From positions 124,001 to 188,000 of the forward strand of contig NZ_AP022607.1 in assembly GCF_010728725.1 (NCBI RefSeq): a stretch of DNA of 64,000 nt, given 5' to 3'. Positions 26,585-29,485 of the stretch are shown in pieces. The notes under the pieces are model-generated. The model searched no databases and had not been told where the DNA came from. It saw only the letters and a program-made list of their open reading frames with translations. The position numbers and the translations under genes were made by a program. How positions within the stretch are numbered: the stretch's first letter is position 1; each line of letters begins with the position of its first letter. Origin of the DNA: Mycobacterium branderi. Its GTDB lineage: Bacteria; Actinomycetota; Actinomycetes; Mycobacteriales; Mycobacteriaceae.

Positions 26585-26628
26585 CTCTTCACCAAATCAA
26601 CGAGAAAGACATCTCACGAAGTTAAGAG

Positions 26629-27861
26629 TCAAGCCACGAGCGAGAGAGGAGGTGGAAACGCCAGGTGTTCGTTGTAGAGCCGGCCGGTCTGCAGGCAGTG
26701 GTGGAGTTGGCCGAGAAACTTGTTGAACAGGTGCCGTTGGGCTTGGTGGTTCCAGTCTCCGGCGGCGCGGCGGGCATCGTAGTGGCGACGCGCGCCCGGC
26801 GAGGCGCGCAGCGATCCCAGTGCCCAGATCGGGCCGACGGCGGCCAGTCGCCGGTTCTTGATGTGGCGGTGCAGGACAACGGTTTTCTTGCCGCTGGCGC
26901 GGGTGATGGGGGCGGATCCGGCGAAGGCTTTGAGTCCGCGGGCCTCAGCGAAGCGGGTTCGGTCATCGCCGATCTCGGCGAGCACCCGGGCGCCGGCCAA
27001 CATCCCCAGGCCGGGGAAGCTGGTGATGATCTTGGCGTCCGGGTGTTGCTCAAAATGGGCGATCGCCGCCTCGGCCAGCTCGTCGGCCGCGGTGCAGGCG
27101 GCCTCGAGTTGGCGCAACAACGCCGCCAGTTGGATGCCCATCGCGTTTTCCACGGCCGGCGGTTGGTGCAGGTAGGTGTCGGTGAACACGGCGCGCAACC
27201 GCTCGATATCGCGGTCGAGATGGCGTCGGCGGCCAGCTTTGGTCAGCAGTCGGCGCAGCCGGGCGGGAGTCAGCGTCGCCGCCTGCGTTGGGGTCGGCGC
27301 AGCGGCCAAGATGGTGCGGGCGTCGGCGCGGGCCAGTCCACCCTCGGGCAGCCCGGCGAACGCGGCGATGGCGGCCGGGTAGAAGTCTTTGAGCAGGTCG
27401 CGGATCTGGTTGCCGATCTGCTGACGCGCCCAAACCGCATCTTGCTGGGCGCGGGCGAGCACCCGGATGGCTTGGGCCAGCTCGGTGTCGGCGGGCAGCG
27501 GTCGGTGCGCGGCGGCATCGGTGCGCACGATATTGGCCAGCAGCACCGCATCGGTGGCATCGGATTTGGCCCCCGACACTGCATGCCGTGCCCGGTACCG
27601 CGAGGCCGCCAGTGGGTTGATCGGGTAGATCACCCGGCCGGTTTCGCGCAGCGCGGCCACCCACAGTCCGCGATCGGTTTCGATCCCCACCGGGATTGGA
27701 TGCGCGGCGCTGTCACCGGCCTCAGCCAGCAGCGTCAACAGAGCCGCGAACCCGGCCGCATCATTGCTGACCCGTCCGCGGGCCACCACACGCCCGTCGT
27801 CGTCGATGACGGCGACATCGTGATGTTCAGTGGCCCAATCAATTCCACAAAACAAGCCCAA
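26629..27861 (-). CDS. IS110-family DEDD transposase
   Basis: A 410-residue transposase. The N-terminal RuvC-like domain has CGIDWATEHHDVAVID (first Asp), VGIETDRGLWV (Glu), and KSDATDAVLLANIVR (later Asp pair). The C-terminal Tnp_20 domain has ITSFPGLGMLAGARVLAEIGD and GSAPITRASGKKTVV with the conserved Ser. The frame is intact and length normal, so it may be active. In characterised relatives (IS621) the enzyme works with a bridge RNA that specifies target and donor. Confidence 0.95.
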   Translation of the reverse strand: MGLFCGIDWATEHHDVAVIDDDGRVVARGRVSNDAAGFAALLTLLAEAGDSAAHPIPVGIETDRGLWVAALRETGRVIYPINPLAASRYRARHAVSGAKSDATDAVLLANIVRTDAAAHRPLPADTELAQAIRVLARAQQDAVWARQQIGNQIRDLLKDFYPAAIAAFAGLPEGGLARADARTILAAAPTPTQAATLTPARLRRLLTKAGRRRHLDRDIERLRAVFTDTYLHQPPAVENAMGIQLAALLRQLEAACTAADELAEAAIAHFEQHPDAKIITSFPGLGMLAGARVLAEIGDDRTRFAEARGLKAFAGSAPITRASGKKTVVLHRHIKNRRLAAVGPIWALGSLRASPGARRHYDARRAAGDWNHQAQRHLFNKFLGQLHHCLQTGRLYNEHLAFPPPLSLVA

Positions 27862-27973
27862 GGTGTCATCACTCCTTCGATCGATGGTTATGCCGTCACC
27901 GGTGGACTCACGCGGCGCCCTAATCGCGGGACTCTTAGGTCCGTCATCTCACTAGCCGTCCGTGACTCCAGCT

Positions 27974-28177
27974 CACCGCAGGACCTCGTTCTATCGAAGA
28001 GCTCAAGGCTCGGGAAACACAGTCGGGAGGTCAACCCTGCGGTGGGCTCGGGCAACGGCATCCCACCACCACCGGAGGTGATCTGCCGCCAGGCGCGCCG
28101 TTCTTTCTCTAGACGTCGAGCGTCGGGACAAACCAGGCATCACCTGACAGCAGACCAACCAGGAAACAGACCCTGGT
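27974..28177 (-). ncRNA. candidate IS110 bridge RNA region
   Basis: The non-coding flank contains several complementary arms. CACCGCAGG (27974-27982) pairs CCTGCGGTG (28036-28044) and extends through ACCTC (27983-27987) with GAGGT (28027-28031) across a 4-base bulge. AGGTGAT (28076-28082) pairs ATCACCT (28139-28145), enclosing a GACG/CGTC hairpin. ACCAGG (28158-28163) pairs CCTGGT (28172-28177). Two stem-bounded large loops plus a terminal hairpin resemble the two-loop design of bridge RNAs. Strand is assigned as that of the transposase. Loop-to-target matching could not be checked. Confidence 0.4.
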
Positions 28178-28225
28178 CGCCACCACGACCAGCAATCCAT
28201 CCCTACTAAACGATTAGGCCCTTAG

Positions 28226-29485
28226 GTGGGATTGCTCAGCGGAATCAAGGTGCTCGAGTCGGCCCAGCTGTTCAACGGCGACACCTTAGGGGCCCTGCTG
28301 GGTGATCTGGGCGCCGACGTCGTCAAGATCGAAAGCCCGTTCCGCGGAGACTATCTGCGCGACTTCCTCGGCCAAGTCACCCCGCACAACAGCCCCGCAC
28401 ACCTGCAGGTCAACAAAAACAAGCGCAGCATCGCGCTGGACCTGCGAAACGAACAAGGCAGAGACGTGTTTTGGCGGCTGCTGGCGAGTGCTGACGTCTT
28501 CGTCGACGGCAACTCCGCAGACGCGATGAGCAAGCTGGGCGTCGGATACCAGCAGCAACGGGCACGTCGCCCCGAGATCGTTTACTGCCAGTACACCGGA
28601 TACGGCGCGACCGGGCCGTATGCGACGATCCCCACTCACGGACAGATGATGAACGCCGCGGCCGGCGCCACGTTGGTGGAGATGGACGACGCGGGATTCG
28701 TGCGGCCGTACCGCGGGCCGCAGCCGTTCAACGGAATCGCCTCCGGCGGGGAAGGCACCTCGGCGGGCGCCACGTTCGCCGCGCTGCATGTCGCCGCCGC
28801 GCTGTTCCAACGGGAGCGCAGCGGTGAAGGCTGCTACATCGACGTCGCCGCATCCGAGGCGGTCATCTCCTCGGCGTGGATCGCGGCGACTTACCAACTC
28901 AACGATGATCGGATCGCCGACCGGCGCTCACTGCCCGACCCGGTCAGCCCCGACGGGACGGCAAGCGCGAAGTACCAGTTCTACCGCACTTCCGACAACA
29001 AGTTCGTGCTGTTCTGCTGCATCGAGCCGGCATTTTGGGCGAATTTCTGCAGGCTCGCCAACCGCGAGGACCTCATCGCAGAATCCGGTAGCGGCCCAGT
29101 AGATTTCGCAGTCGCCGCCGATGCCGACCAGACTTTGCGCCGCGAGATCCAGAAGGTCATCGAGACGCGCACCCAAGCCGAGTGGGTCACTCTCGCAGCC
29201 GAGCATGATCTGGCGATCGGCCCGGCCCTGCAGCACAACGAACTTCGCAGCGATCCCCAGTTGAGCGCGCGGGGAGCGTTCATCGACACCACGCATCCGG
29301 TTGCCGGCCCGTTCACCCACGTCACTCTTCCGGCGCTGGTCAACGGTCGGCGATCGACCGACATTCGGTGCCACGCACCGGCTTTGGGCGAGCAAACCGA
29401 CGAGATACTCACCGAGATCGGACTGGATCGCAAGGCGATCGCCGCCCTGCGCGGGGCCGGCGTGGTCGCGGGGCCGGCCACCTGA
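28226..29485 (+). CDS. CaiB/BaiF-type CoA-transferase
   Basis: A 419-residue type III CoA-transferase or racemase-like protein: GIKVLESAQLFNGDTLGALLGDLGADVVKIE (N-terminal Rossmann part), NKNKRSIALDLRNEQG, IVYCQYTGYGATGPYA. The usual catalytic Asp region reads GCYIDVAASEAV, with Glu where Asp is common. It would move CoA between acids or epimerise a 2-methylacyl-CoA. The GTG start lacks a clear ribosome site and follows the IS flank directly, so its native promoter may be displaced. First of a unit with DUF35 and thiolase genes. Confidence 0.88.
   Translation: MGLLSGIKVLESAQLFNGDTLGALLGDLGADVVKIESPFRGDYLRDFLGQVTPHNSPAHLQVNKNKRSIALDLRNEQGRDVFWRLLASADVFVDGNSADAMSKLGVGYQQQRARRPEIVYCQYTGYGATGPYATIPTHGQMMNAAAGATLVEMDDAGFVRPYRGPQPFNGIASGGEGTSAGATFAALHVAAALFQRERSGEGCYIDVAASEAVISSAWIAATYQLNDDRIADRRSLPDPVSPDGTASAKYQFYRTSDNKFVLFCCIEPAFWANFCRLANREDLIAESGSGPVDFAVAADADQTLRREIQKVIETRTQAEWVTLAAEHDLAIGPALQHNELRSDPQLSARGAFIDTTHPVAGPFTHVTLPALVNGRRSTDIRCHAPALGEQTDEILTEIGLDRKAIAALRGAGVVAGPAT

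Follow-up and report, generated by a model that had tools for sequence, protein, structure and literature searches.

The window, a 64,000-nucleotide stretch of Mycobacterium branderi DNA, contains an insertion sequence of the IS110 group whose upstream leader very probably encodes a bridge RNA, the reading that best explains the observations as a whole. The ends of the element, the structural covariation of the leader, the covariation of guides with DNA, an excess of start codons beside the insertions and the fit of identical copies to different loops can all be read from sequence, and we infer RNA production, ribonucleoprotein formation and strand exchange by analogy with IS621. An earlier note on this DNA had proposed a bridge RNA in the structured flank of the transposase, and this proposal is borne out: the ends of the element include the stem region, the structure covaries among relatives, and the loop bases match donor and target DNA. 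It also appears likely, from the relatives' sequences, that this IS110 lineage uses multi-address bridge RNAs, with one to three target-binding loops (TBLs) of differing guides before a shared donor-binding loop (DBL), so that the loop in use decides to which class of site one and the same element jumps. The element in the window would be the smallest form of this arrangement, in which a single loop works, directed at Shine-Dalgarno sequences, and a TBL-like domain has lost or changed its task.

Table 1. Positions of the features in the window
Feature	Position	Strand	Basis or remark
Right target TTCTC (host DNA)	26602..26606	-	Sites without the element
IS110-group element with both CT cores	26607..28217	-	Seven near-identical genome copies; comparable sites without the element showing ..TC-CT-TTC..
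Right core CT	26607..26608	-	Sites without the element
Left donor (LD) GTGAGATGT, in the right end	26609..26617	-	First 8 bases identical to LDG GUGAGAUG
-35-like TTGACT	26627..26632	-	Promoter-like in the circle only, together with T 26609 and CTAAT 28217-28213; spacer 17
IS110 recombinase, 410 aa, TTG start	26629..27861	-	PF01548 1.6e-35, PF02371 1e-11
Non-coding leader encoding the predicted bridge RNA	27862..28217	-	Fold z -3.39; covarying structure
DBL	27904..27969	-	Fold and covarying structure
Right donor guide (RDG) CGAUU and core-pairing AG	27920..27926	-	Match to right donor
Left donor guide (LDG) GUGAGAUG	27945..27952	-	Match to left donor
Middle TBL-like domain	27966..28049	-	Match to TBL-only covariance model; conserved helices
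TBL	28080..28156	-	Conserved pairing 28080-28095/28141-28156
Right target guide (RTG) GAGAA and core-pairing AG	28103..28109	-	Pairs with CT-TTCTC; signal at +4
Left target guide (LTG) UUUGUC, then CC 28126-28125	28127..28132	-	Agreement with left target at -3, -4
Predicted 5' hairpin (28173-28180/28185-28192)	28173..28192	-	Minimum-energy fold alone
Right donor (RD) AATCG	28211..28215	-	Matched by RDG
Left core CT	28216..28217	-	Sites without the element
Left target side CTAAGGGC (host DNA)	28218..28225	-	Flank comparison
CoA-transferase family III (CaiB-like) host gene	28226..29485	+	PF02515 7.2e-82; element adjoins its start

The element, its ends and its copies

The transposase frame is open, as expected of the intact transposase described earlier, and carries both IS110-group domains, DEDD_Tnp_IS110 and Transposase_20 (Table 1). 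No solved structure was found for it by sequence at E 0.001. A 356-nt leader upstream of the recombinase and a 22-nt right end fit the IS110 group; the IS1111-group layout, with the non-coding region downstream of the recombinase, is absent, this region lying upstream. The gene-free 364 bp described 5' of the transposase are indeed without a sense gene, and their length has to be corrected to 356 nt. Likewise, the bounds of 26600-28225 given for the element were too wide, the actual ones being 26607-28217, with 28218-28225 and 26602-26606 belonging to target DNA.

The host genome holds seven near-identical copies, that in the window included, and these make up seven of the 11 matches to the IS110 family model in its 5.98 Mb. 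Eight leader matches occur there, seven of them at 100% and one at 71%. A long open frame (439-441 codons) is kept in three of the seven copies and shorter frames are found in four; five copies (L013, L014, L015, L016 and L018 of genome G000) differ from that in the window by small indels in GC-rich runs, reflecting decay or sequencing error. Protein relatives with 44-90% identity occupy 62 loci in public genomes, leader matches (some short) occur in 26 of 297 genomes of the genus, and 12 plasmid records match, five with a coverage of at least 80%. One locus, L029 (G000:C2 near 711412), is an internally deleted 344-bp derivative of a relative. It has kept both element ends, a portion of the leader and, of the transposase gene, just the end, and its left core lies 8 nt from an ATG.

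The seven copies alone place the right end too far out because all of them share the same right-hand target bases. As the earlier note had advised, the CT cores and ends were instead fixed from sites without the element, for which the joined flanks of five relatives' insertions (L098, L039, L047, L031 and L033) were searched in 386 genomes. Comparable sites were found for four of the five. In G006, the closest genome (94%), that of L098 reads GGGGTC-CT-TTC-AGG, and about two dozen other genomes have it in more diverged form; that of L039 reads GCCCTC-CT-TTC-TTGG in 4 genomes (82-93%); and that of L047 reads GATTC-CT-TTC-AGCC (G243, 97%), its left bases being unlike those of the occupied site. 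L031 has its counterpart at another site of the genome that carries it, reading TCTC-CC-TTC-TCC (87%), with a different core, and for L033 no site without the element was found among the 386 genomes. The window genome's own insertions yielded such sites, heavily diverged, for two of five queried. On the basis of the sites without the element, the core is CT, the element runs CT-AATCG...GTGAGATGT-CT, and TTC is target DNA. Two other readings, the ends CCTAATCG...TTTCT derived from the seven copies and a TC core derived from relatives, were dropped since these sites put TTC in the target. The right-flank variants among the insertions (TTC, CTC, GTC, TTG, TAC and TCC) are consistent with this, and the caution in the seekRNA paper that conserved target bases may be counted into the ends of an insertion sequence (PMC11187229) holds for TTC here. 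In the four sites compared, the dinucleotide core CT stands at both ends with no further target duplication; counting one core, the circle of the window element measures 1609 nt.

The leader has a conserved structure

When both strands of the leader were folded, as had been proposed, the recombinase-sense strand folded better than its shuffles (z -3.39, 0/100 as good), and the opposite strand gave z -2.23, with 1/100 shuffles as good. A structure built on 20 aligned leaders comprises 72 pairs with 93.8% of cells paired, 13 pairs being changed on both sides. None of 500 shuffles reached any of the five measures used, and sliding the partners by 1-3 columns lowered pairing to 33-44%. The weakest helix is the closing one, 28051-28061/27890-27900, at 73.2% paired. 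The domains follow one another as 5' hairpin, TBL, middle domain and DBL, which is the layout of a bridge RNA in the left end (5' stem-loop, here from the fold alone, TBL and DBL) with an extra middle domain. In the TBL, pairing reaches 98.0% in the 20-pair stem, where both partners have changed at 6 pairs, and 100% in the inner hairpin. No Rfam family matches the leader; the only two matches, both sub-threshold, are antisense to the transposase and outside the leader.

Three stems had been pointed out in the earlier note. The one at 27974-27987/28027-28044 is real and conserved, lying within the middle domain and corresponding to helices 4 and 5 (98.8% and 98.0% of cells paired). Those at 28076-28082/28139-28145 and 28158-28163/28172-28177 are possible in this sequence, but with 62.5% of cells paired they do no better than shuffles. 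The conserved pairing 28080-28095/28141-28156 takes the place of the former, and at 28158-28177 the minimum-energy fold predicts the 5' hairpin of Table 1 instead. It is not the longest of these stems but the loop at 28080-28156 that reads the target.

The middle domain, whose GAGCUC/UUCGA core is nearly invariant, resembles a TBL. A covariance model built only from TBLs (R2, which replaced a poor first model, R1, of 7 pairs) matches it in the window at E 3.6e-4 and in 14 of 16 near relatives at E up to 0.011, E-values that are roughly calibrated. The right target was matched at 4/5 or better by the TBL in 36 of the 39 scorable sites and by the middle loop in two (L042 and L072), four more sites without a readable middle loop standing outside the 39. 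No clear use of the middle domain was seen among the insertions examined, and it was dropped as a TBL because its bases fail to track the targets.

Guides vary together with target and donor DNA

The guides of both the TBL and the DBL match target and donor DNA, the complementarity that the earlier note had suggested looking for. Target guides were assessed at 49 sites with 29 distinct left guides and at 43 sites with 18 distinct right guides, and donor guides in 31 distinct leaders for the LDG and 34 for the RDG. Four loci were left out: L029, L109 and L110, in which no TBL was found, and L069, for which the parser read the first loop and the left target fits the second by eye. L051 and L108 are without a DBL. 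The left-guide offsets and the guides of L050, L082, L087 and L062 were set by hand, and the RDG was read at a fixed offset. Left positions -1 and -2 are not counted as evidence, because the LTG offsets were set to read TC there in most leaders.

On the left side, identity between LTG and target was 0.743 at -3 (0.348 when shuffled) and 0.754 at -4 (0.305 when shuffled), values reached by none of 20000 shuffles, and it fell to 0.472 at -5 (118/20000); there was no signal at -6 (2832/20000) or -7. On the right side, identity to the RTG was 0.944 at +1 (1/20000), 0.933 at +2, a position that hardly varies (2199/20000), 1.000 at +3 (21/20000), 0.970 at +4 (0.352 when shuffled, 0/20000) and 0.669 at +5 (6/20000), with no signal at +6 (8014/20000). 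The target signal thus ends about five bases out on each side, as expected of a guide. CT-TTCTC stands to the right of six of the seven copies in the window genome, the seventh having TTCTG. Other right guides face other targets: GAC-AG is found with CT-GTC (L046), CAA-AG with CT-TTG (L055 and L058) and GAG-AG with CT-CTC (L053, L057, L070, L032 and L104). For the donor, 167 of 170 pairs between RDG and right donor are Watson-Crick across the 34 distinct leaders, and RDG positions 4 and 5 vary and track the element end in 34/34 leaders each (0/20000 shuffles). The variable base of the LDG agrees with the LD in 26 of 31 distinct leaders against 13.5 expected (0/20000).

The fit is not complete. 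The LDG base disagrees in five of the 31 leaders; the three failed RDG pairs comprise two in L049, one of them a wobble, and one in L058; and the right target was matched at less than 4/5 in three of the 39 sites (L035, L039 and L042). Left-guide mismatches occur in the window copy at -2 and in the copy L016 at -1 to -4. Guide bases facing the core are also imperfect, the LTG ending in CC not CU and the LDG being followed by ACG not UCU, and a 2-nt shift improves the fit of the right guide in L050 and L087.

Insertion beside start codons and the circle junction

The target TC-CT-TTC reads GAAAGGA, a Shine-Dalgarno sequence, on the complementary strand, which is why the element tends, in one orientation, to land immediately ahead of a start codon. 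A start codon was counted as plausible if an ATG or GTG on the opposite strand, 3-18 nt from the core, opened a frame of 60 codons or more. Such a codon was present at 27 of 52 sites, compared to 1966 of 15378 AG control positions (12.8%) in the same flanks; by the same test, 25 of the 52 sites are without one. In the window, 8 nt separate the left core from the GTG predicted to start the CaiB-like gene, and AGG remains 7 nt upstream of this GTG. Judging from this position, the element could possibly drive or silence the gene.

The joined right and left ends give TTGACT-17-TCTAAT. Promoter-like boxes are present at all 19 distinct junctions, scoring 9-11 of 12 and at least 10 in 16 of them; among 3800 shuffled junctions, a score of 9 is reached by 81 and one of 10 by 7. 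A promoter formed at the circle junction is a trait of the IS110 group, which the element displays as far as sequence can tell.

Relatives with several target-binding loops

Model R2 finds two TBLs in five distant leaders (L055, L056, L058, L062 and L067), and L069 has two by eye. Both flanks of L062 closely match the second loop of its two-loop leader; L062 and L086 are two Arthrobacter loci with an identical right flank.

In 384 genomes of the family of genome G446, leader matches, many of them short, occur in 111. Of 47 loci retrieved, 31 were parsed, 20 of them with both ends, and 16 remained unparsed. We scored 12 target positions against every place in a leader with AG and a left guide 17-34 nt upstream, which gave 21 site readings because L260 has two possible left ends; this set lies outside the covariation tests. 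With the element's own leader, 20 of the 21 readings match a loop at 10/12 or better, the miss being L210, which fits its single loop with 9. With leaders from different elements, which in part have guides in common, 36 of 648 comparisons do so. The fitted loop lies at about leader position 80-85 in seven loci (L204, L205, L206, L262, L272, L273 and, allowing for its duplicated left end, L260), at 167-216 in nine (L207, L241, L242, L256, L257, L261, L264, L265 and L274) and at 285 in three (L243, L277 and L278).

Leaders with two or three TBLs, carried by relatives of the Streptomyces group, belong to identical or nearly identical copies at sites matching different loops (L204-L207, L273/L274 and L260/L261). 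The four copies in G446, identical over the 2312 nt compared, are split between loop 1, which fits three of them (CGGCGAAC-CT; right side 6, 6 and 4 of 6), and loop 2, which fits one (TTGGTTCC-CT-ATCCT; right side 5 of 6). The G446 leader also has a third loop, which would address a class of targets so far not observed to be occupied. Two copies in G633, identical over 1728 nt, and two in G729, 99.8% identical over 1856 nt, each divide in the same way, one fitting the first loop and the other the second. In one of the G729 pair, L260, the left end is duplicated in tandem over 103 nt. Of 38 such loci, R2 at E up to 0.1 matches 26 at least twice, 7 once and 5 not at all; the middle domain accounts for some of the second matches.

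In the limited body of openly available text searched, we found no mention of multi-TBL RNAs, and the words 'tandem' and 'multiple loops' are absent from PMC11208160. If true, such loop arrays within single RNAs would be a natural counterpart to multiplexed guides and would point to a route by which IS110 elements change targets (loop duplication, then drift); they would also agree with the published view of TBL and DBL in one complex coming from two RNA molecules (PMC11208158).

Proposed mechanism and alternative explanations

We propose that excision would join the right and left ends around the CT core, creating the promoter-like sequence, from which leader and recombinase would be transcribed. 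Two pairings would follow, that of the DBL with the junction GTGAGATGT-CT-AATCG of the element itself and that of the TBL with a target in the chromosome (in the window roughly GTC-CT-TTCTC), and donor junction and target would be joined at CT by the recombinase. Landing would leave the element's TTAG beside the remaining Shine-Dalgarno bases. Relatives carry as many as three TBL modules, and where copies of a single element sit at different sites, different TBLs fit them.

The recombinase protein might instead read the sites by itself, the leader being conserved as DNA ends or as regulatory sequence. Some sites do mismatch their guides and the recombinase is known here from its domains alone, yet the identical G446 and G633 copies sit at unlike targets, each matching a different loop, and guide bases change together with target and donor bases; we hold this explanation to be highly improbable. 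Equally improbable is that the leader is conserved as coding sequence. On the plus strand, a 514-codon antisense frame (26665-28209) spans nearly the whole element and resembles the hed gene of IS900, which has the same layout (PMC8141618, in the part available), and antisense frames of at least 340 codons occur in 29/29 full-length elements examined, exceeding 480 codons in 24. However, leader substitutions are spread over its codon positions (449/342/373), and 2000/2000 synonymous resamplings of the transposase keep the antisense frame free of stops. A hed-type gene was rejected, as both measures are without a coding signature.

Two further alternatives concern parts of the bridge-RNA reading. 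The preference for start codons could reflect survival rather than aiming, insertions within genes having been purged. Filtering of this kind certainly operates, and no more than about ten bases are read by the TBL; on the other hand, sites without the element carry TCCTTTC (3/4 compared) or TCCCTTC, and start codons stand at 24 of 38 sites of near relatives versus 3 of 14 of distant ones, many of which have other guides. We consider survival a real but unlikely explanation. As for the multi-TBL relatives, their copies could once have had different leaders that gene conversion later homogenised. Recombination among copies is plausible, and the duplicated left end of L260 is in keeping with it, but every loop would have had to enter one leader and spread while each still fitted an old site, and the pattern is present in three genomes, which makes this history improbable.

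Comparison with known systems

The comparisons below draw on parts of the cited papers. Bridge RNAs have two internal loops, one for the target and one for the donor (PMC11208160, PMC11208158). The element shares with IS621, described in the same papers, an IS110 recombinase, a leader RNA in the left end, a TBL and a DBL with LTG/RTG and LDG/RDG, a CT core within the pairings and a promoter formed by the circle junction, the RNA and the promoter being predicted from sequence for the window element. It differs from IS621 by the TBL-like domain between TBL and DBL, by its target, which is the Shine-Dalgarno complement whereas that of IS621 is REP DNA, and by its relatives with two or three TBLs, the description of IS621 having one target loop.

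For IS900 of Mycobacterium avium subsp. paratuberculosis, the reported target motif is CATGNNNNNNTCTCCTT, which can likewise be read as the complement of a Shine-Dalgarno sequence beside a start codon, and IS900, too, has an antisense frame of great length, hed; in contrast to the window element, a guide RNA is not mentioned for IS900 in the text available (PMC8141618). The habit is shared by description, which is no proof of membership, and the window element would offer a readable guide for the reported landing of IS900 at ribosome-binding sites. Among seekRNAs, described for IS1111 and IS110 types, the target-choosing RNA of the latter is determined by the non-coding region upstream, as it would be here; an array of target loops is not mentioned in the parts of that paper available (PMC11187229). 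Tandem guides also occur in TIGR-Tas, an RNA-guided system (PMC12045711) that is not an insertion sequence, whereas the tandem TBLs described here sit in one transposon leader.
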